A stretch of 64,000 nt of DNA from positions 248,001 through 312,000 of the forward strand of contig JAFDWX010000001.1 in the NCBI GenBank assembly GCA_018268255.1, in the 5' to 3' direction. The DNA is from Armatimonadota bacterium (GTDB lineage Bacteria > Armatimonadota > Fimbriimonadia > Fimbriimonadales > Fimbriimonadaceae). The notes beneath the pieces are model-generated. The model ran no database searches, was not told the DNA's origin, and worked only from the letters and a program-made list of their open reading frames with translations. Each line of letters begins with the position of its first letter. Position 1 is the stretch's first letter. The position numbers and the translations under genes were made by a program. This document shows positions 46,242 through 58,393 of the stretch, in pieces.

Positions 46242-48842
46242 ATGGAAGAGCTAGCAACGCGTTACGACGCCTCCCAGGTGGAGGCCAAGTGGTATCAGGC
46301 ATGGTCCCAGGCAGGCCTGTTTTCACCTTCGGATCCATCCGACAAGCCGAATTTCACGGTTACTATTCCGCCGCCCAACATCACGGGAACCCTTCACATG
46401 GGCCATTCGCTCTGCTACCCCGTGCAGGACGCGATCGGGCGGTACAAGCGACTCCGCGGCTACAACGTATTGATTTTGCCCGGACAGGACCATGCTGGAA
46501 TTGCAGCGCAAAGCGTGGTCGATAAGGAACTCAAGAAGGAAGGTCTTTCTGCGGTTAAACTTGGGCGGGAGGCATTTGTACAAAAGGTTTGGGACTGGCA
46601 AACCGAATACGGTGGACGGATCCTAGAGCAGTTCAAGCAGCTGGGTTGCGGTTTTGACTGGTCCCGCAGACGCTACACGTTGGACGATGCCTATGTTCGA
46701 GCAGTACTCCACGTCTTTATCGACTGGTTCGAACGTGGTTTGATTTACCGAGGCAAGCGGGTCGTAAACTGGGACCCGGTCCTCCAAACTAGCGTTTCCG
46801 ACATCGAGACGGAGCGCAAAGTGGTTCGCGGAAAGCTCTATCACATCCGCTACCCGTTCTCAGATGGTTCAGGTTCAGTTACGATCGCCACGACCCGTCC
46901 GGAGACCATGCTTGCTGACGTTGCGGTAGCTGTTCATCCGAGCGATGAACGTTATCGCGGTATGATCGGAAAATCCCTGGTACTTCCATTAACGGGACAA
47001 GAGATCCCGTTGATTGAGGACACGTACCCCGACCCAGAATTTGGAACAGGGGCGGTGAAAATCACCCCCTCGCACGACGCCAATGATTTCGAAGTCGGCG
47101 TGCGACACAACCTTCCCATGCCGATCGTGATAGACCCCAAGGGGAAGATGACGGAAGATTGTGGCCCCTATGCAGGATTGGATCGGATTGAGGCCCGCAA
47201 GCGAATCGTAGCGGATCTGGAAGAGCAAGGATTCCTTGAAAAGATCGATGACCACGAAATAGCCCTCATCACGAGTGAGCGAAGTGGCGAAGTCATTGAG
47301 CCCCTGCTCAGCGAACAGTGGTTTGCCAGACAGACCGAACTGGCCAAACCCGCACTTGAGGCTGTGAAAAGCGGGAAGATCAGGTTCATCCCCGATCGAT
47401 ACAACAAGGTTTATATCGACTGGATGGAGAACATCCGCGACTGGAACATCAGTCGGCAGTTGTGGTGGGGTCATCGTATACCCGTTTACTACACCGAGGA
47501 AGGCACTGCGTACGCCGCTCATTCATGGGAAGAGGCTCAGTCGAAGGCGGGAGACAACAAAATTGTCCGACAGGACGATGAAGTGCTTGACACTTGGTTC
47601 AGCAGCGGCTTGTGGCCCTTCGCCACATTCGGCTGGCCCGATGATCAGGGTCAACTCAAAGAGCGCTTTCCAACAGACCTGCTCGTTACGGATCGCAACA
47701 TTATCTACCTCTGGGTAGCAAGGATGATCATGATGTCGCTGGACCAAATTGGGGACATTCCCTTCCCCGACGTGGTCATTCACGCCACGGTAATGACCGA
47801 GGATGGCCGCAGGATGAGCAAGAGCCTTGGCACAGGTGTGGATCCGGGCAAAATAATCGCTGAAAAGGGCGCAGATGCTTTGCGGTTTACGCTGCTTGGA
47901 CAGGCTGGCCATAACCAGGAGATCAGATATAGCGAGCGAAAGACAGACGATGCCCGCAACTTCTGTAACAAAATCTGGAACGCTACGCGGTTCATCTTGA
48001 TGAATATGGACGGTGTTGTTGACACCGAGCCCGCTGAGTTAGCGCCGATCGATCAGTGGCTCCTGAGCCGTCTAGCTCGGGCCGAGCGTATCTCCAAAGC
48101 AGCCTACGACGACTACGACCTTCAGGAAGCTTCTCAGACTTTGTATAAGTTCTTTTGGTCAGAGTTGTGCGATTGGTATATCGAGATCTCCAAACCGAGG
48201 CTGGCAAATGAGGCTACTCGGGCAACGTGCCAGTGGGTTCTGTTGAGGGCCCTGGAGGGCTTTGCGACCATGATGCATCCTATCATGCCGCACATCACCG
48301 AAGAGGTCTATGCGCACCTTCCGATTGCTAACAAATCTCCATTTGTTATGTCAGCTCCCTGGCCCGACGTTGCACGGTTCGAAAATGCCGACGTCGAAAC
48401 GCGCGTTGAACGATGGATTGAAATTACTCGATCAGTTCGAGCGTTGCGGGCCGAGATAGGGCTCATCGACCTGAAAAAGACCGCCGAAGGATACTTCGAA
48501 GGGGACCTCGAGGGTGGCGACGAGGTAATTCGAACTCAATCGGCCCTCACTTCCCTAGTTGCGGGTGTACCAGCTCAAAAGCACGTCTCAATTACGGTTG
48601 AAGGAGTGGATATCCACATACCCATCGAAGGTCTCATCGATTCCGAAAAGGAGGGCCAACGGCTCCAGAAGGAACTCGAGAAGACACAGACTGAGCACGA
48701 CAAGCTGGCAGAACGCCTCAGCAATCCACAGTTTGTGGAGCGCGCGAAGCCCGAAATTGTGGACCGGGAGCGGGAAAATCTCTCTGAGCTCGCCTCCAAA
48801 CTGGCGAAGATTCAGGAACGGATCCGCTTGTTTAGCAATTGA
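46242..48842 (+). CDS. valS: Valyl-tRNA synthetase
   Basis: The 866-residue class I synthetase has the HIGH-type motif in PPPNITGTLHMGHSL (~51), an editing (CP1) domain with TTRPETMLADVAVAVHP and GTGAVKITPSHDANDFEVG, the KMSKS-type motif GRRMSKSLGTGVDPG (~522), an anticodon-binding helical domain and a C-terminal coiled coil (~800-866) typical of ValRS. It charges tRNA-Val and clears misactivated threonine. ATG is preceded by AGGAAAG. Its 3' end overlaps the convergent MBL-fold gene by 31 bases. Confidence 0.97.
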   Translation: MEELATRYDASQVEAKWYQAWSQAGLFSPSDPSDKPNFTVTIPPPNITGTLHMGHSLCYPVQDAIGRYKRLRGYNVLILPGQDHAGIAAQSVVDKELKKEGLSAVKLGREAFVQKVWDWQTEYGGRILEQFKQLGCGFDWSRRRYTLDDAYVRAVLHVFIDWFERGLIYRGKRVVNWDPVLQTSVSDIETERKVVRGKLYHIRYPFSDGSGSVTIATTRPETMLADVAVAVHPSDERYRGMIGKSLVLPLTGQEIPLIEDTYPDPEFGTGAVKITPSHDANDFEVGVRHNLPMPIVIDPKGKMTEDCGPYAGLDRIEARKRIVADLEEQGFLEKIDDHEIALITSERSGEVIEPLLSEQWFARQTELAKPALEAVKSGKIRFIPDRYNKVYIDWMENIRDWNISRQLWWGHRIPVYYTEEGTAYAAHSWEEAQSKAGDNKIVRQDDEVLDTWFSSGLWPFATFGWPDDQGQLKERFPTDLLVTDRNIIYLWVARMIMMSLDQIGDIPFPDVVIHATVMTEDGRRMSKSLGTGVDPGKIIAEKGADALRFTLLGQAGHNQEIRYSERKTDDARNFCNKIWNATRFILMNMDGVVDTEPAELAPIDQWLLSRLARAERISKAAYDDYDLQEASQTLYKFFWSELCDWYIEISKPRLANEATRATCQWVLLRALEGFATMMHPIMPHITEEVYAHLPIANKSPFVMSAPWPDVARFENADVETRVERWIEITRSVRALRAEIGLIDLKKTAEGYFEGDLEGGDEVIRTQSALTSLVAGVPAQKHVSITVEGVDIHIPIEGLIDSEKEGQRLQKELEKTQTEHDKLAERLSNPQFVERAKPEIVDRERENLSELASKLAKIQERIRLFSN

Positions 48843-49672
48843 AACCCATTCGGACCAGGATGGAATTCTAGTGTTCCGTCCTGGTCCGTCCGCATTACTT
48901 GAATTCTTCTCTCGAGACAGCTCTCCACAACTCCCTTTGCTGGATGTCCATACGAGTTGTTTCTTCCGACGCTAATGATCGCGACTTCTGGGTGGAGACT
49001 GTCTAGCCACTGAGGCGAAGTCGAAGTTCTGCTGCCGTGGTGCCCGAGTTTCACAACTTGAGCAGTCCAATGCGCCCGAGACTGCACCATCTCTTCGACA
49101 TAGGCGGACGCATCGCCGGACATCACCGCGGTGCTCCCGCCCATCTGCACCCTCGCAAACAGCGAACCATCATTATCTTCGCCAGTGGGGGATTCATTTA
49201 GGGTTCTCAATTCAATCTTTAACTCATCCTTCTGAATCCAAGCTCTCTCCCCTAGCCACTCCACCCTTTCGGTTGGAACTTCTGCGTCTAAAAGCGCTTG
49301 TTGCATGTCAGGATTGGATTGGAAGCACTTTGGAATTCCGATTTTGTCCACCTGAAACCGAGCGTACAAAACTCCGAGACCACCCACATGGTCAGCATCA
49401 GGATGCGTCATAAATATCCAGTCGAGCTGACGAACCCCAAGTCGATACAACTCAGGAACAACAAGTCGCTCGGCACCGTTGGTCTGATCATTTGCCGGAC
49501 CGCAATCCACCAACATCGAACGCCCATGGTACTGGATGAGTGTGCAGTCTCCCTGGCCAACGCGCAGAAAGACCAGACGATCAGGCACTGACTTCGGGAA
49601 TTGCGCGAAAAGGTAGCCTCCGGCCAGCACACAGCCACATGTCCATCTAACGATCTTTCGATAATCGAACAT
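48812..49672 (-). CDS. ComEC-type metallo-beta-lactamase domain protein (split ComEC, part 2)
   Basis: The 286-residue protein starts with one hydrophobic segment (~8-24) and continues as the MBL fold found at the C-terminus of ComEC/Rec2: FLRVGQGDCTLIQYHGRSMLVDCG, the metal motif MTHPDADHVGG, MSGDASAYVE and VVKLGHHGSRTSTS, ending with SVGRNNSYGHP. In full ComEC this domain is thought to degrade the non-transforming strand. Here it is a separate gene overlapping the channel gene by 26 bases in another frame, so the pair probably acts as one ComEC. It overlaps valS convergently. Confidence 0.9.
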   Translation of the reverse strand: MFDYRKIVRWTCGCVLAGGYLFAQFPKSVPDRLVFLRVGQGDCTLIQYHGRSMLVDCGPANDQTNGAERLVVPELYRLGVRQLDWIFMTHPDADHVGGLGVLYARFQVDKIGIPKCFQSNPDMQQALLDAEVPTERVEWLGERAWIQKDELKIELRTLNESPTGEDNDGSLFARVQMGGSTAVMSGDASAYVEEMVQSRAHWTAQVVKLGHHGSRTSTSPQWLDSLHPEVAIISVGRNNSYGHPAKGVVESCLERRIQVMRTDQDGTLEFHPGPNGFQLLNKRIRS

Positions 49673-51026
49673 AAGGTTTCCAGAACGTCAAAAGGCCGAT
49701 GTAAACCGGAATGAGCCAATAGGCAGAGAATGGAGCAACCGCAACCGTATATCGGGCGCTGCCAAAGATCGTCTCCAGAGTGCGCAATGCTTCAAGCGGT
49801 AGTACTGCCAGGATCGAAACAAAAGATCCAAGTATGGGAAGTAAAGTCCCTGTCAGCCACGCCAGATATCCTGAAAACAGTGCGAACAGGAAAGCTGGCA
49901 GAGCGAGTATCGAGACAACGGGTGTAATCCATGAGATGTATCCGAGGTGATATGCCGTAATTGGTGCGGCAAATGTCCATACCAGTAGCGTTCCCTGACC
50001 TAGCTCAAGTATCCATGGCTTCAGCGATTGCCCCTTCTTTCTATTCCAAACTTGTTGCCCAATTGTGCACAAGCCTAGCAAGGCAAAATATGTGAAGTGT
50101 AAACCGACATCGAACACAGACCGGGGATCAAACAGGATGCTGATAACGAATACCGCGGCCAGGGCATTCAAGCTGTCAAAGTTCCTTCTCACTAAGTGCG
50201 ATAGTGCGAACATTGCCGCCATTCCCGAAGCGCGGATGACGTTAGCGTTCAGTCCCGCAGCTCCGGCGAATAGAATGAGTCCCAAAAGCATAAGCACAAT
50301 CTGGAACCATCTCGGTACTGGCAGTCTCGAGAGCAAGGCCATGAGCGCCCATGAAATGAGAAACACCTTTAGCCCCGAGGCTGCCAAAAAGTGAATGAGC
50401 CCGGAATATGCAAGGCGTTCTCTGGACCGTTGGTTGATCTCGCTTCGATCGTTAAAACAAAGAGCGTCCATGAGCGCGGATTCATCATTGGTCCAAACGC
50501 GATCGGAGAACTTGAGATAGTTGGCTCTCAAATCACGCGCCATGCGCCAGATATACGGCCCTTCCCGAATCATTTTCGGGGTCGATCTTAAGCGCAAACT
50601 CGCTGTAAATCCTCGATCCAAAGCGTAGGTTTCTGAGGCTTCGCTCACGGGTTTCAGGAACCCCGAAGCTTGGATTCGATCGCCTTTGGAAATATCAAAA
50701 GGTTCCACCGTAGCAACTTGATAGTGGTTAGTATCTGTGCGAGCTTCGCAGACAAAGCCATCCGCGCTACGGATGGGCATGGTTGTAATGGTTAAGACTC
50801 CATTAAAGTAGCGGTGCGATTTCAAAAGCGGAGCTGTGGATCGAGGCGCTATCGCTACGCCGATGATCAATCCGATCATCGCGGTGAGATAGGCACTTTG
50901 TCCTCTAAGTAGAGCGAAAAAAGGAAGGAGGAATAGCGCGTTAATGTGATTCAACATGCTGGCAGCGCCTAACCCTATAGCAATTGCCAACAGCAAGGCT
51001 GGTCGCTTATTCCATTGGTTCAACAT
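49647..51026 (-). CDS. comEC: ComEC/Rec2 DNA-uptake channel, membrane part (split ComEC, part 1)
   Basis: About 459 residues with many membrane helices. The N-terminal OB-like region (SKGDRIQASGFLKP) is followed by the competence domain with IHFLAASGLKVFLISWAL, matching the H-LLAISGLHV motif of ComEC, and by repeated helices to the end. ComEC carries single-stranded DNA across the inner membrane during transformation. ATG at 51026 follows TGGGAAA; an upstream ATG at 51071 would add 15 residues and overlap the DUF721 gene more. The MBL domain is encoded by the next gene. No comEA is present. Confidence 0.88.
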   Translation of the reverse strand: MLNQWNKRPALLLAIAIGLGAASMLNHINALFLLPFFALLRGQSAYLTAMIGLIIGVAIAPRSTAPLLKSHRYFNGVLTITTMPIRSADGFVCEARTDTNHYQVATVEPFDISKGDRIQASGFLKPVSEASETYALDRGFTASLRLRSTPKMIREGPYIWRMARDLRANYLKFSDRVWTNDESALMDALCFNDRSEINQRSRERLAYSGLIHFLAASGLKVFLISWALMALLSRLPVPRWFQIVLMLLGLILFAGAAGLNANVIRASGMAAMFALSHLVRRNFDSLNALAAVFVISILFDPRSVFDVGLHFTYFALLGLCTIGQQVWNRKKGQSLKPWILELGQGTLLVWTFAAPITAYHLGYISWITPVVSILALPAFLFALFSGYLAWLTGTLLPILGSFVSILAVLPLEALRTLETIFGSARYTVAVAPFSAYWLIPVYIGLLTFWKPYVRLSKDR

Positions 51027-51348
51027 TTTCCCAGGGTGCTGATACTCGAGATCGAGGGGAGCGTGTGCCAACGCGTAGATTTAGGAACAGAGGCTCACCG
51101 GCTCGGGTGTTCAACTTTTGGAGGATGAGATCCTTATGCAAACGAATCTCCTGCGCCCATGCGGAACCGCTGGCGATGACCCAAAGGGTTCCCTTCTCAA
51201 ATCGATCCGGTATACATCGCTCGGCGAGACCCATTCCAACGACTTCATCCCAGTCGCGCATGACAATCTGAGCGCGACCCGTTTTGGCGATCTCTGGTCT
51301 ACCCAAAGCCGCATCAACCATGTCAGCAATCTTTTTCAAGCCCGGCAT
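51007..51348 (-). CDS. DUF721 (DciA-like) protein
   Basis: The ~113-residue protein has the DUF721 core: LKKIADMVDAALGRPE, MRDWDEVVGMGLAERCIPDRFEKGTLWVIASGSAWAQEI (split across the domain) and LHKDLILQKLN. The DUF721 family includes DciA, the ancestral loader or regulator of the DnaB helicase. ATG at 51348 gives the usual family start and overlaps recF by 13 bases; a frame to 51423 lies inside recF. The recF-DUF721 order is the same as next to the origin of actinobacteria, where gyrB follows; here comEC follows instead. Confidence 0.82.
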   Translation of the reverse strand: MPGLKKIADMVDAALGRPEIAKTGRAQIVMRDWDEVVGMGLAERCIPDRFEKGTLWVIASGSAWAQEIRLHKDLILQKLNTRAGEPLFLNLRVGTRSPRSRVSAPWENVEPME

Positions 51349-52445
51349 ATCTGGCCACTCTCCACAGAAAAAACCTGACCCAGAGCCAAGGCACTGGCAG
51401 CGATCTGGTCCACCTCTGTACATGTCATGATGACTTGGCCAGCATGATCAAATGCAAGAGACAGAAGATTTGATTGCCTAAATCGGTCGAGCTCAGCAAA
51501 TACATCGTCTAGCAGCAGGAGTGGAGCCAAGCCCAAAACTTCCGAGGCGACCTTCAGGGAGGCCATTTTGAGCGAAAGCGCTACACTCCGCTGCTGCCCT
51601 TGGGATCCAAATGTGCGGGTGCGATGGCCATTGATGCTGAGGGCCAAATCATCGCGATGTGGACCAATCAAAGAAGTTCCGCGACGAATCTCCTCTCGTC
51701 TGCCCTCACTCAAAGCCGAAGCTAGAGCTTCGTGGTCAGCGTGGCGGTCCTTTGCCTCATATTCAATCGCAAGGCTCTCGCCGGGCTCGAGACCACACAA
51801 GATCGGACCGCCATACCCGTGGAGATCCAAGACGTACTGCTTCCTCCGATGCCTCAACAAGGCACCGTGCTGGGCCATATCGGCCTCCCAGATCTCAAAC
51901 TGGTCATCTGGCACGTTCTGTTCCTGCGCAGCCCTCAAAAGCACGTTTCTTTGCTCCAGGGCACGCTTGTAATTCGCTAGGTGCTGCAAGTATCCCGGGT
52001 AGAGCTGCGAAAGCGAAGTATCCAGGAAAGTGCGACGTTCGGCCGGATCACCTCGAACGAGAGCCATATCCTGAGAGCTGAAGGTCACCGAAGGCAGTCG
52101 TCCCAAAAGATCAGAAATCCTGCTCAGCGCACTTCCGTTGATCCTCGCACGCTTTCGCTGTCCTCCGACAAGCTGAACCTCAAGGAGCGTCTCGGATTCT
52201 GCAAGAACGCCTCTCACCAGCGCTTCGGTCTCATCCCAACAGATCACCTCGGCGTCTTTCGACCCACGCAATATCTGCCCGGTCGAGAGAAGGTACATCG
52301 CTTCCAGCAGATTGGTCTTCCCTTGAGCATTTCTTCCGACTAAGACGTTCAGCCGCGGATGGAGGTCAACACGCTGCTCGACGAGATTTCTCCAGTGACG
52401 CGTTTCAAGGCTGGAGACTCCTAGTGGGATTTCCCCCACATTCAT
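51336..52445 (-). CDS. recF: DNA replication and repair protein RecF
   Basis: The 369-residue SMC-like ATPase has Walker A VLVGRNAQGKTNLLEAM near 37, RTFLDTSLSQLYPGYL, the signature region GSQGQQRSVALSLKMA and Walker B LLLLDDVFAELD. RecF helps load RecA at gaps. The gene begins at the edge of a 247-bp gap with DnaA-box-like sequences and overlaps the DUF721 gene by 13 bases. The expected upstream partner dnaN is not present on this side; an RDD-family gene is found instead. Confidence 0.96.
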   Translation of the reverse strand: MNVGEIPLGVSSLETRHWRNLVEQRVDLHPRLNVLVGRNAQGKTNLLEAMYLLSTGQILRGSKDAEVICWDETEALVRGVLAESETLLEVQLVGGQRKRARINGSALSRISDLLGRLPSVTFSSQDMALVRGDPAERRTFLDTSLSQLYPGYLQHLANYKRALEQRNVLLRAAQEQNVPDDQFEIWEADMAQHGALLRHRRKQYVLDLHGYGGPILCGLEPGESLAIEYEAKDRHADHEALASALSEGRREEIRRGTSLIGPHRDDLALSINGHRTRTFGSQGQQRSVALSLKMASLKVASEVLGLAPLLLLDDVFAELDRFRQSNLLSLAFDHAGQVIMTCTEVDQIAASALALGQVFSVESGQICRA

Positions 52446-52692
52446 AGAGAAAAGAGTTCCTTGAGAGAATTCTTATTTCTTTTATTATCAACTTTGGTAA
52501 TGTGGAAAACTCTTCGACGGCGTGTAGCTTTTGGACCATTCTCTAGGCTAATTGAACTTAGCCGAACCGAGCGACATTGATCAGTACTGGTGGAAAACGT
52601 TGTGAATAACCAGACTTGTGTACAAGATTTTTCATAGGGTTTTCCTACCTCTAAATCCTGTCCAGATCTGTAAACCGGTTTTCCCCAAGTTT
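52446..52692. other. Candidate replication origin (oriC-like) upstream of recF
   Basis: Within this 247-bp gap TGTGGAAAA (52501-52509) and TGTGAATAA (52601-52609) each differ by one base from the DnaA box TGTGGATAA; GGTGGAAAA (52589-52597) and, on the other strand, TTTTCCCCA (52679-52687) differ by two. An A+T-rich stretch (52470-52500) could be the unwinding element. recF, the DUF721 gene and a perfect parS site 6.3 kb away support an origin region. dnaA and dnaN are missing and no box is perfect, so a plain recF promoter region remains possible. Confidence 0.45.
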
Positions 52693-53442
52693 TCATAGCA
52701 AACCCTGTTCACGGCCAAACCGCATGATGACCGCCTCCATCAAGTAGATAGGGTGCACTCCTGGAATCGGTGAGATGCCCCGCTTTTCTTGGAATGGCTC
52801 CCAGATTTCTGCAACAAATCGATTCTGGAGAACCGGTGGCAGCATGGGAAAACGATCACAAAGTCGCTTGAGAGCCACATATTCGTCCATGGTCATCCCG
52901 CGCAGGTGTCCGATATGCTCCTCGAATGGGTGAATTCCCGCGCGATAGGGTGCCACCTCGGGACGAAGCATCGGCGGTTTCTCATGAGTGACCATGGTGT
53001 TCGAAGCGAGATCGCCCAGTCTCTGGCAGCGCTCGTTGAGAAACATCACGATAATCCCACCGGCGAAGAAGCTCGGAAGGAAGTCGCCGATTAGGAGGAT
53101 GTTACGGAAGAACGCAGAGGCGAAAGTCACGGGCGTTCCATCGGTCATTCTCACCCGAATTCGAAGAGCGAATTTGCCAAGGGTGAGTCCGTTCCACAGC
53201 CCTTCCAGCAGGATGAAATATAGGAACGGAGCGAAGGACAAAAGGACGATAACGAAACTGAGTCCCAAGGCTCGTGTGAGATCAAAAGCTGCCAATATCG
53301 CCGAGATTTGAGCCAGAAGGTATAGCATCCCGCCGATCACCAAGAGGTCGATGAGTTTCGCGCCAATGCGACTCCCGATGGATGCGACTCGGTAAGCTAC
53401 GGCAACCTTTTCTGGAGTAAGTACGGCAACCTCGTATGGCAC
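52693..53442 (-). CDS. RDD-family membrane protein
   Basis: The 249-residue protein begins with GTG and shows the RDD domain: an Arg in SRIGAKLIDLLVIGG and two Asp residues, with three to four membrane helices up to ~140 (LSFVIVLLSFAPFLYFILLEGLWNG; TLGKFALRIRV). A soluble C-terminal part (~150-249) is specific to this branch. RDD proteins are mostly uncharacterised, and some are linked to ion transport. The divergent neighbour encodes DUF58, and RDD, DUF58 and MoxR genes commonly sit together in bacteria. Confidence 0.82.
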   Translation of the reverse strand: MPYEVAVLTPEKVAVAYRVASIGSRIGAKLIDLLVIGGMLYLLAQISAILAAFDLTRALGLSFVIVLLSFAPFLYFILLEGLWNGLTLGKFALRIRVRMTDGTPVTFASAFFRNILLIGDFLPSFFAGGIIVMFLNERCQRLGDLASNTMVTHEKPPMLRPEVAPYRAGIHPFEEHIGHLRGMTMDEYVALKRLCDRFPMLPPVLQNRFVAEIWEPFQEKRGISPIPGVHPIYLMEAVIMRFGREQGLL

Positions 53443-54781: not shown

Positions 54782-54837
54782 TTAACGAAATCCACAGAAA
54801 GCGGCAAAACTTTGCCATTTCTCGCCCAGGTTCTTTG

Positions 54838-54843
54838 TATAAT
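54838..54843 (+). promoter_or_regulatory. Promoter -10 box of the PEP-CTERM gene
   Basis: A perfect TATAAT stands 50 bases before the ATG at 54893. A TTGCCA at 54812-54817 resembles a -35 but the spacing is 20 bp, longer than ideal. The box supports the downstream ATG rather than an upstream TTG at 54812 as the translation start. Confidence 0.6.
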
Positions 54844-54892
54844 ATCAACAACTTGTGTTGCCGTACTTTTCGGCTTTGGATTGAGAGTAAGA

Positions 54893-57800
54893 ATGAGAGT
54901 CGACCCAGGGATTCGTGGCGGTTGGTGGGCCGCTCTCGCCGGTGCATTTGTACTGGGAGGGCTTATACCCGTTCGTGCTCAGGCATCCGTTAACTACTGG
55001 CTTCCCAATTATGCAAGCCAGTATTGGGAGAATCCAGCAAACTGGTATCTCGGATCTCCAACGGATCCAGGCAACGATCTCTACATCAACTTTGGTCAAT
55101 ACCTATCTAATATTCAGCAGACAACGATAGCCTCGGGCAATTTCGTTGGACGTAACCTGTACACAAACTCAGACCTCTCGATTTTGGGCGGAAGTTTGGA
55201 CCTTTCTGGAGACAGCAGCACTGTTCAGGGGGCCGTTTCAGTCTCAGGAGGCAGGCTGACCGTTGGCAAGTTGACATCCGAAAACTTGTATGTCGCCGCC
55301 AACGCCACGATCGAGGGCAACTTCTCGCTGAACTCGACCTTGGTGACGTCCGGATCCTTCACGTTGAACGGAAACGTGGATATCCTCGCAGGATCTGCGA
55401 GCCTGAGCGGTACCGCATCGGGGAGCCACTACATTCGATCAAGGGATTTGGTCGCGACGAACTTCCGCGGCGATGCGCTGGAAGTCCTCAACGCTGGCAC
55501 TTTCTCGGGTGTCACCTTGAACACCCTGGTCGTTGGAGAAGGTGCGTCATCTCAGTTTCTGGGAGCGCAATCGACGATCGGAAATCTCCCCGTCGACGGC
55601 ACTGTGTCGATGGACACCCAGCAGGGCGTGAAAATTACCGGCTCGATGAATCTCAATTCCGGGTCCCATGTTCAAGGGGATTTCGAGCTAGTGGGAGGGC
55701 TGTTCTCGGCCGCGTCGGGTTCTGCCGGTTACGTCAACCTGGTGCTGACGCATGGCGCTCAGGCAAATTTTGAAGCTGGCAGCGATGTCGCAGTTGGTTC
55801 GCTCCAATTGGCTGGCGAGACCACCAAGTTAAGTTCCGACAAAGCCCAGTCGATAGACTCTCTCCAGTGGACGGCAGGCGAAATCGGCGCTGCAGAGCTG
55901 GTTGCCGACAACCTCTCCATATCCGGGCCAGGCAAGAAAATACTCGGTCAATCAGCATCGTTGCGCTTGAATGGAACTGGAACGTGGGGTTCGGGAAATG
56001 TGGACTCAGCAACGTCGGGTTCAGATGATGCCACGTTCATTAACGAAGCTGAGAGTATCTTCAATGTGACCGGTATCGGGACTTGGAAGCCGGGCACGTT
56101 CGCCAACCGTGGCTTGCTCAACAAGTCCGGCCAAGGCTCCACCATTATCGAGGCGCTGTTTGCTAACTCGGGCTTGGTTCATGTGACGGATGGAACTCTG
56201 GATCTGCGTGGGGGAGGGATGCAAACAGGAGCTTTCCACGTCGACGGTTCTGGAACGCTTCTATTCAATCCAGGTGCCGGGGGGAGCTTCTCTTTGGACC
56301 AGGGAAGTTCGGTCTCCGGATCAGCCACGGTAAGTTCAGGCGAGTTGGGCATTTTCGGTTCCGATCTCTCAGAAGCGGATCTAAATGTTCGCGACGCTGG
56401 CACCCTTTATCAGCTCAGCGGCAGTTCGCAGATACACAGCTTGCTCTTGGATCCCACCGGAACGCTCGACCTTCAGGATTCAACCAGTCGCGTGGCCGAT
56501 CTCAGGAATTTGCGGAATGGCGAGCTGAGTAACGGTGTTTACAAAGTCCACAACTCCGTTCTGTCCATTCAGGGGCCGATCAGCACCAACAACGCGTCAA
56601 TCATCTTGAGTGGTGACGGTGCCATCCGGTATGGCGACGGTCGGGATGCTCTCACGGGCCTGACCACGAACAACGGCATCCTCCACATTCTTGGCCAGAA
56701 TCAAGCTTTCAGTTCCCTGCTGAACAACGCGGGAGAAATCTATAGTGCCGGCGAAAACAACCTTTCCTTCGATCATGGTCTGGCTAATAGCGGGCGAATT
56801 CTCCTGGAAACGAGCTCGGCCTCAATCTCTGGCGGATCCAACATCTCTGGGTTGATGGAGGCGGACGAGTACAGCTCGTTCCGATTCTTGGATGGAGTCA
56901 ACAACTTCCTCGATCAGTCCGTTCTCATCGGCCGCGCAGTGCTTCAGTCCGGGGAGTTTAACTTTTTCGCCGGTTCGGACTTTAATGACGCGATCATCGA
57001 CAACGTTGGGGGACAGGTTTTCTTCCGCGGAGGCACTTCCGCTGTATTGGGAACGCTCAACCTTAACCAGGGAACGTTCAATGTTGTCGGCAACACTCGA
57101 TTCAACAATCGGGTGAGGGTCGGAGGCGAGGTGCAGCTCAATAGCTCCAACCTGACGTTCGCAGGCGGAGGCGAATCCAGCGGCTCGATCTTTGCGCAGG
57201 GAAGCAGCAACGTCAGCTTTGCAAGCGGTGAATTTGATCTGAATGACGGCAGCAAGCTGTTCGGATCGATGTCGGTAGACGGCGCAACAGTCAACGCCAA
57301 TAACAAATCGAAAATCGTCGGCACGATCGATATCCTTACCGGGATTTTCAACTACCGCAGCGGCGCAGACACCAGCGCAAGCAAGTACGTCGTCCGCAAC
57401 GATGGCACCCTCAACGTGCAGTCAGGTTCGCTCCAAATCAGCGACTTCTCCGACAACTGGGATGCCCAAAATCGTGTGCTCAGTGGCGGAAAGATCCATG
57501 TTTTTGACGGTGCCACGCTGACTTTCGGGATGGCTGGCGTGATCACCAACCGCGCCAATGTATGGCTGTCCGGTCAAAACGCGAATTTCAACATCTTCTC
57601 CCAGCGTAACGGAGACACCAGCGCCCTGGGATCGCTCAGGGAAAACGGTGGCGATATCACCCTTGAGAATGGTGCCAACGCTTCGATTGAGGACTCGGTC
57701 AACAACACCGGAACGTTCAATTTGAATGCCGCTTCGGTCACCTGGGGCGGAGGGGTCACGAACTCGGGCCAAGTGGGAATGCGCAACGGTTCTACTGGCG

Positions 57801-58393
57801 ACAGTGGCGACAACGTCAACAACACCGGGACGTTCTTGGTTGGAGCTTCGACCCTTACGATCAATGGGGACTACAACCAAACTGCCGGTCGGACGACGCT
57901 GGAAGATAACGGGACCATCACAGCGCACAACTTCAACATTATAGGTGGCGAATTCAGCGGCACAGGAAACCTTGATTCCAGCGTCAACAACACGGGCACG
58001 ATGAGTCCGGGCCAGAGCCCTGGCAAAGTCAAGATCACCGGCGACTACCTGCAGGGTGCGACTGGAAAGATGATCTTGGAGATCGCCGGAACCATGGACA
58101 GCGATTTTGATCAGATCAAAGTCTTGGGACAAGGCCACCTCAATGGATCGCTTACCGTCCGATTCCTCGGTGGGTTCAAGGCGAAGGAAGGCCAATCGTG
58201 GCAGATGCTCACCTTTGACGGCGGGTTGTTTGGCCAGTTCAGCTCGGTGACCTTTGAAAACGCGAATGTTCCTCTTGCCCTCTCATATGGTCCCAATTCG
58301 CTCAGGATCAACGCTGTGCCGGAACCAGCATCCATTGCCGCTATCGGAGTCGGGTTGGCAGTGCTGGTGCGGCGACGTCGCAGGTGTGCATAG
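54893..58393 (+). CDS. Large PEP-CTERM surface protein with beta-helix-like repeats
   Basis: The ~1166-residue product begins with a signal peptide (WWAALAGAFVLGGLIPVRAQA) and ends with a PEP-CTERM sorting signal: VPEPAS, a hydrophobic helix and the basic tail VRRRRR. In this system exosortase recognises the tail and directs the protein to the envelope. The body consists of many short strands rich in Gly, Ser, Asn and Thr with irregular repeats of NNTGTF-N and SG-x-L types, suggesting a parallel beta-helix. The last part (GNLDSSVNNTGTMSPGQSPGKVKITGDY in pieces) resembles autotransporter-associated repeats, but there is no barrel domain. No exosortase gene is in the window. Confidence 0.85.
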   Translation: MRVDPGIRGGWWAALAGAFVLGGLIPVRAQASVNYWLPNYASQYWENPANWYLGSPTDPGNDLYINFGQYLSNIQQTTIASGNFVGRNLYTNSDLSILGGSLDLSGDSSTVQGAVSVSGGRLTVGKLTSENLYVAANATIEGNFSLNSTLVTSGSFTLNGNVDILAGSASLSGTASGSHYIRSRDLVATNFRGDALEVLNAGTFSGVTLNTLVVGEGASSQFLGAQSTIGNLPVDGTVSMDTQQGVKITGSMNLNSGSHVQGDFELVGGLFSAASGSAGYVNLVLTHGAQANFEAGSDVAVGSLQLAGETTKLSSDKAQSIDSLQWTAGEIGAAELVADNLSISGPGKKILGQSASLRLNGTGTWGSGNVDSATSGSDDATFINEAESIFNVTGIGTWKPGTFANRGLLNKSGQGSTIIEALFANSGLVHVTDGTLDLRGGGMQTGAFHVDGSGTLLFNPGAGGSFSLDQGSSVSGSATVSSGELGIFGSDLSEADLNVRDAGTLYQLSGSSQIHSLLLDPTGTLDLQDSTSRVADLRNLRNGELSNGVYKVHNSVLSIQGPISTNNASIILSGDGAIRYGDGRDALTGLTTNNGILHILGQNQAFSSLLNNAGEIYSAGENNLSFDHGLANSGRILLETSSASISGGSNISGLMEADEYSSFRFLDGVNNFLDQSVLIGRAVLQSGEFNFFAGSDFNDAIIDNVGGQVFFRGGTSAVLGTLNLNQGTFNVVGNTRFNNRVRVGGEVQLNSSNLTFAGGGESSGSIFAQGSSNVSFASGEFDLNDGSKLFGSMSVDGATVNANNKSKIVGTIDILTGIFNYRSGADTSASKYVVRNDGTLNVQSGSLQISDFSDNWDAQNRVLSGGKIHVFDGATLTFGMAGVITNRANVWLSGQNANFNIFSQRNGDTSALGSLRENGGDITLENGANASIEDSVNNTGTFNLNAASVTWGGGVTNSGQVGMRNGSTGDSGDNVNNTGTFLVGASTLTINGDYNQTAGRTTLEDNGTITAHNFNIIGGEFSGTGNLDSSVNNTGTMSPGQSPGKVKITGDYLQGATGKMILEIAGTMDSDFDQIKVLGQGHLNGSLTVRFLGGFKAKEGQSWQMLTFDGGLFGQFSSVTFENANVPLALSYGPNSLRINAVPEPASIAAIGVGLAVLVRRRRRCA

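Follow-up and report, generated by a model that had tools for sequence, protein, structure and literature searches.

The intergenic gap between recF and a gene for an RDD-family membrane protein in a fimbriimonadial armatimonadote is most probably the chromosomal replication origin (oriC) of this bacterium, linked to recF and distant from dnaA and dnaN. Judging from the sequence comparisons described here, the probability of this reading is about 0.9. The gap spans 247 bases (52446..52692) of the window, which is the whole 64,000-nucleotide stretch that was analyzed (C1:248001-312000 of genome G000, 3.19 Mb in 9 contigs), and it is located at 300.5 kb on contig C1. It carries an array of predicted DnaA boxes with fixed spacing and a defined geometry between box and DNA unwinding element (DUE); the array is conserved in relatives, unique in the genome and in agreement with the GC skew of its home contig. 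Little has been published on the origins of Armatimonadota, the relevant work being an origin guess for Fimbriimonas ginsengisoli that drew on a single box and a jagged skew. The conserved array offers a concrete, testable origin for Fimbriimonadaceae, one that allows assemblies to be rotated and growth rates to be estimated from coverage (peak-to-trough). It would also provide an example of an origin that stays beside recF, apart from both dnaA and dnaN.

Gene neighborhood and array layout

The gap is flanked by recF (51336..52445, minus strand; Pfam SMC_N and RecF relatives), which reads away from the candidate origin, and by the RDD gene (52693..53442, minus strand; Pfam RDD). Beyond recF lies dciA (51007..51423, minus strand; Pfam DciA, E=3e-16), which encodes a putative DnaB helicase-loading factor. 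A preliminary description of this DNA placed recF and a DciA-like gene after the gap in the order seen beside actinobacterial origins; both genes are confirmed by Pfam. The host is most probably a fimbriimonadial armatimonadote rather than an actinobacterium. The same description had RDD and DUF58 genes filling the usual place of dnaA and dnaN. Pfam confirms the presence of both, but the RDD gene is not a random filler, since it is a conserved neighbor of the candidate origin in the family: an RDD C-terminus is found upstream of recF at 30 of the 45 loci checked, with 27 of 33 in the genome's own family and 3 of 3 checked in family f5. The proposed detachment from dnaA and dnaN is borne out, with dnaA at C1:403 kb, ~103 kb from the gap, and dnaN on a separate contig, C4. 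Also in the window, ComEC (48812-51071) appears as two overlapping minus-strand frames, one with the Competence domain (49647-51071) and one with the metallo-beta-lactamase domain (48812-49672), and positions 54812-58393 encode a repetitive protein of 1193 aa with a PEP-CTERM motif at its end.

The predicted DnaA boxes B, C and D are all on the minus strand. Box B (52601-52609, TTATTCACA), located by pattern search and from the arrays of relatives, is one base away from TTATCCACA. Box C (52589-52597, TTTTCCACC), placed by the relatives' arrays and alignment, is two bases away and lies 12 bp from box B. Box D (52501-52509, TTTTCCACA), which is one base away, lies 88 bp from box C, adjoins the candidate unwinding element and holds a near-invariant position in the relatives' alignment. 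As a possible fourth member, the cluster has a weak site, TTGTACACA (52617..52625, minus strand), read from the sequences 16 bp from box B, and a TTRTACA-like sequence can likewise be read 16-17 bp from box B in relatives. Directly after the RDD stop codon, comparison of recF-upstream regions identifies an outlying box on the opposite strand (52679-52687, plus strand, TTTTCCCCA, two bases from TTATCCACA); a site resembling TGTGGAAA occurs at this position in many relatives. In recF orientation, the outlying reverse box and boxes B, C and D are at -242, -164, -152 and -64, respectively. The two 9-mers at one mismatch and the two at two mismatches that had been described are thus all present. 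Their description as degenerate applies against the E. coli consensus only, and does not hold for the family, whose arrays commonly carry TTTTCCACA.

The A+T-rich stretch previously noted is also found: A+T content is 60% in the gap and ~45% in the contig, and in a nearest-neighbor scan of the 64 kb window the 40-mer of lowest stability starts at 52462, within the gap and beside box D. This 40-mer falls within the candidate DUE (52440..52500). The sequence TAATAAAAGAAATAAG (52472..52487, minus strand) lies 13 nt beyond box D, and its opposite strand reads CTTATTTCTTTTATTA, with TTATT motifs. Overall, the array comprises a pair of boxes at a distance of 12 bp, another box 88 bp further and then, after 13-14 nt, TAATAAGAA-like AT-rich DNA. 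Within the 79 bp that separate box C from box D there is an inverted repeat, GGCTAATTGAACTTAGCC (52547..52564), and comparison with relatives shows a TTYARRTTCAA-like element at its position in many of them.

Uniqueness in the genome and conservation in relatives

The pattern TTWTNCACA is not enriched genome-wide (86 sites versus 104 for a reversed-pattern control). The two sites in the gap, 100 bp apart, are the only pair in the genome closer than 200 bp; an estimated 0.25 pairs that close are expected by chance, and the pair alone is weak evidence. When boxes B, C and D and the TAA repeat are combined in a spaced score, the gap reaches 46.9 bits and the next unrelated place 25.4 bits in a search of both strands of 740 kb. 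The spacing ranges of this score were picked after inspecting relatives and the gap itself, and a sequence-only model built from 14 relatives, with the genome's own sequence left out, is therefore the cleaner test. This model matches the gap (C1:300473-300624; 52473-52624 of the window, minus strand) with E=1.7e-9, while the next site in the whole 3.19 Mb genome has an E-value of 0.14, which places the box cluster beyond chance. A rival box-rich region beside dnaA was also sought, and no comparable array is found elsewhere in the genome.

The boxes are kept in relatives, together with their spacing. About half of the 33 recF-upstream regions read in the family have a 12-bp interval between boxes B and C and one of 87-90 bp between boxes C and D; the remaining arrays are weaker or shifted. 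A box followed by 10-18 nt and TAANAN is present in 26 of the 33 family members, whereas mononucleotide shuffles give 0.56 on average and at most 3. At the level of the order, the model matches 61 of 113 genomes at a threshold of E<=0.01, in some cases weakly, and about half have no match; the class-level search covers the same 113 genomes.

In the sister family f2, model matches coincide with clusters in which 9-13 near-perfect boxes are densely packed; these adjoin dnaA in G051, recF in G045 and other genes in g37, g42 and g44. From their sequence these clusters look like ordinary oriCs, and the array of the present family (f1) is therefore most readily understood as their sparse counterpart. 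Within f1, genus g30 has its array (12 bp, then 130 bp) between NrdR-like and AspS-like genes, named by sequence reading. With array sites beside such differing genes, the origin would therefore shift among gene neighborhoods, recF being its commonest neighbor. The box cluster upstream of recF in G045 (L278 / L316) is very dense; the DnaA domain PF00308 was not found in the G045 genome, probably owing to an assembly gap.

GC skew and rival readings

The raw GC skew of contig C1 has its minimum at 274.7 kb. A strand-corrected GC3-skew fit, which uses simple ORF calls on the home contig up to 620 kb, third codon positions and permuted genes, puts the change point at 308 kb, with a permutation p of 0.003 and a 3-log-unit support range of 300-348 kb. 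Relative to the best fit, the gap loses 2.8 log-units and dnaA 9.4, so the skew check proposed in the preliminary description favors the gap on this contig. Skew in relatives, taken at 15% sampling, is mixed: recF is favored in G020 (recF -1.2 versus dnaA -11.1 log-units), G034 is compatible with both genes, G012 mildly favors dnaA (recF -3.9 log-units) and G009 clearly favors dnaA (recF -7.2 log-units). On the single contig G009:C1, the skew switches near dnaA (2.66 Mb) although the array sits beside recF (2.22 Mb). Inversions could explain the mixed skew in relatives, including that of G009.

The published placement for the same family also differs from the one given here. The 5,231,762-bp genome of F. 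ginsengisoli Gsoil 348 has its first base at dnaA and recF at 1,929 kb, with dnaN and recF reported as distant from dnaA (PMC4072686). The authors relied on one box and a jagged skew to place its origin near 5.13-5.20 Mb, between dnaA and dnaN; the skew origin itself is at 5.13 Mb, near dnaA, and not at 1.93 Mb (PMC4072686). Genome G063, which from its coordinates we infer to be this strain, has DnaA at base 415 and a model match at 1,929,669, between the RDD and RecF frames. Its array reads TTATCCACT, 12, TTTTCCACT, 88, TTTTCCCCA, and would escape a search for exact TTATCCACA. The conserved array is thus at 1.93 Mb beside recF rather than at 5.13-5.20 Mb, and the recF-linked layout in most relatives tested calls into question the published placement for the group.

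The skew near dnaA in G009 and, mildly, in G012, the published skew origin of F. ginsengisoli near dnaA and the small number and weakness of the boxes would all suit a DnaA-binding regulatory or titration site, either datA/DARS-like or a DnaA-controlled recF promoter, with replication starting elsewhere, for example near dnaA. This reading is quite improbable, as skew strongly disfavors dnaA in the present genome and in G020, and no box array lies upstream of dnaA here or in nearly all relatives examined: box-like sites per 500 bp upstream of dnaA average 0.53 in relatives' loci and number 0 in this genome, against 3.0 for recF gaps. The array, moreover, is unique in the genome, adjoins the window's least stable DNA with the R1-DUE spacing of E. 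coli and is matched in the sister family by dense clusters of boxes. The g30 array sits apart from recF, and the array is therefore not simply a recF promoter. That a few loose 9-mers have come together by chance in an AT-rich intergenic gap is barely credible; single boxes are indeed no commoner than control patterns, but the spacing is fixed over many genera and the leave-one-out E-value is far below that of any other site.

An unlikely variant of the oriC reading is that the DNA beside box D holds DnaA-trios and unwinds by a Bacillus-type basal system instead of an E. coli-type DUE. The B. subtilis oriC2 system (PMC6669920, PMC8287927) shares with the gap a box, about 13 nt and AT-rich trinucleotide repeats; the gap has TAATAGTAA-like trinucleotides and a spacer of 13, the commonest given for DnaA-trios (PMC8287927). 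The strand of the repeats relative to the box is opposite, as read in Bacillaceae relatives. For this polarity control, Firmicutes loci were obtained by a RecF search of named genomes, in which the nameable matches listed were all Firmicutes. Leaving the box 5'-3', Bacillaceae loci read CTATTACTACTA and so have the trios on the other strand; the Bacillus polarity is therefore absent here: no trios are found on the strand running 3'-5' from the box, as TAATAG is on the box strand, as in E. coli, where Bacillaceae loci have CTATTACTA. A first reading of the repeats as Bacillus-type DnaA-trios was rejected by this comparison.

Proposed initiation mechanism

E. coli oriC, located between mnmG and mioC, is among the closest matches: its R1 box and DUE read TTATCCACA, 14 nt, TAATAAGAG; the gap reads TTTTCCACA, 13 nt, TAATAAAAG. 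The gap shows the E. coli-type R1-DUE arrangement (TTWTCCACA, 13-14 nt and TAATAA, with TTATT on the other strand), and the two share strand geometry and a position that is not beside dnaA. The gap differs in its recF and RDD neighbors, in its fewer and weaker recognizable boxes and in the conserved TTCAA-type element of its 79-bp spacer. At the E. coli R1-DUE, IHF introduces a bend between R1 and the boxes that follow. The system of PMC4285127 also has recF beside the origin, whereas in the present genome dnaA and dnaN are elsewhere and the candidate origin is directly upstream of recF.

DnaA encoded 103 kb away would bind at two places: the box cluster (the weak TTGTACACA, then boxes B and C) and, 88 bp further, box D, which stands alone. 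Bending of the 79-bp spacer would bring the cluster and box D into one complex, after which the AT-rich DNA past box D would melt and DnaA would hold the strand with the TTATT motifs, as at the E. coli R1-DUE. The DnaB helicase would be loaded next, possibly aided by the DciA protein encoded beside recF.

More tentatively, Fimbriimonadaceae may use a sparse, fixed-spacing origin whose few weak boxes need to be folded by a non-DnaA factor that binds the TTYARRTTCAA element conserved within the 79-bp spacer. If true, the initiation complex would be specific to this lineage and would show unwinding geometry like that of E. coli in a member of the Terrabacteria, a group usually compared with Bacillus. 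The array would also be an instance of E. coli-like box-DUE geometry outside Proteobacteria.

At dnaA itself, TTATACACA (minus strand) is located <=70 bp from the start of the dnaA frame in 5 of 30 dnaA loci (L165, L172, L173, L174 and L188, all from relatives), and it is possibly a site of DnaA autoregulation.
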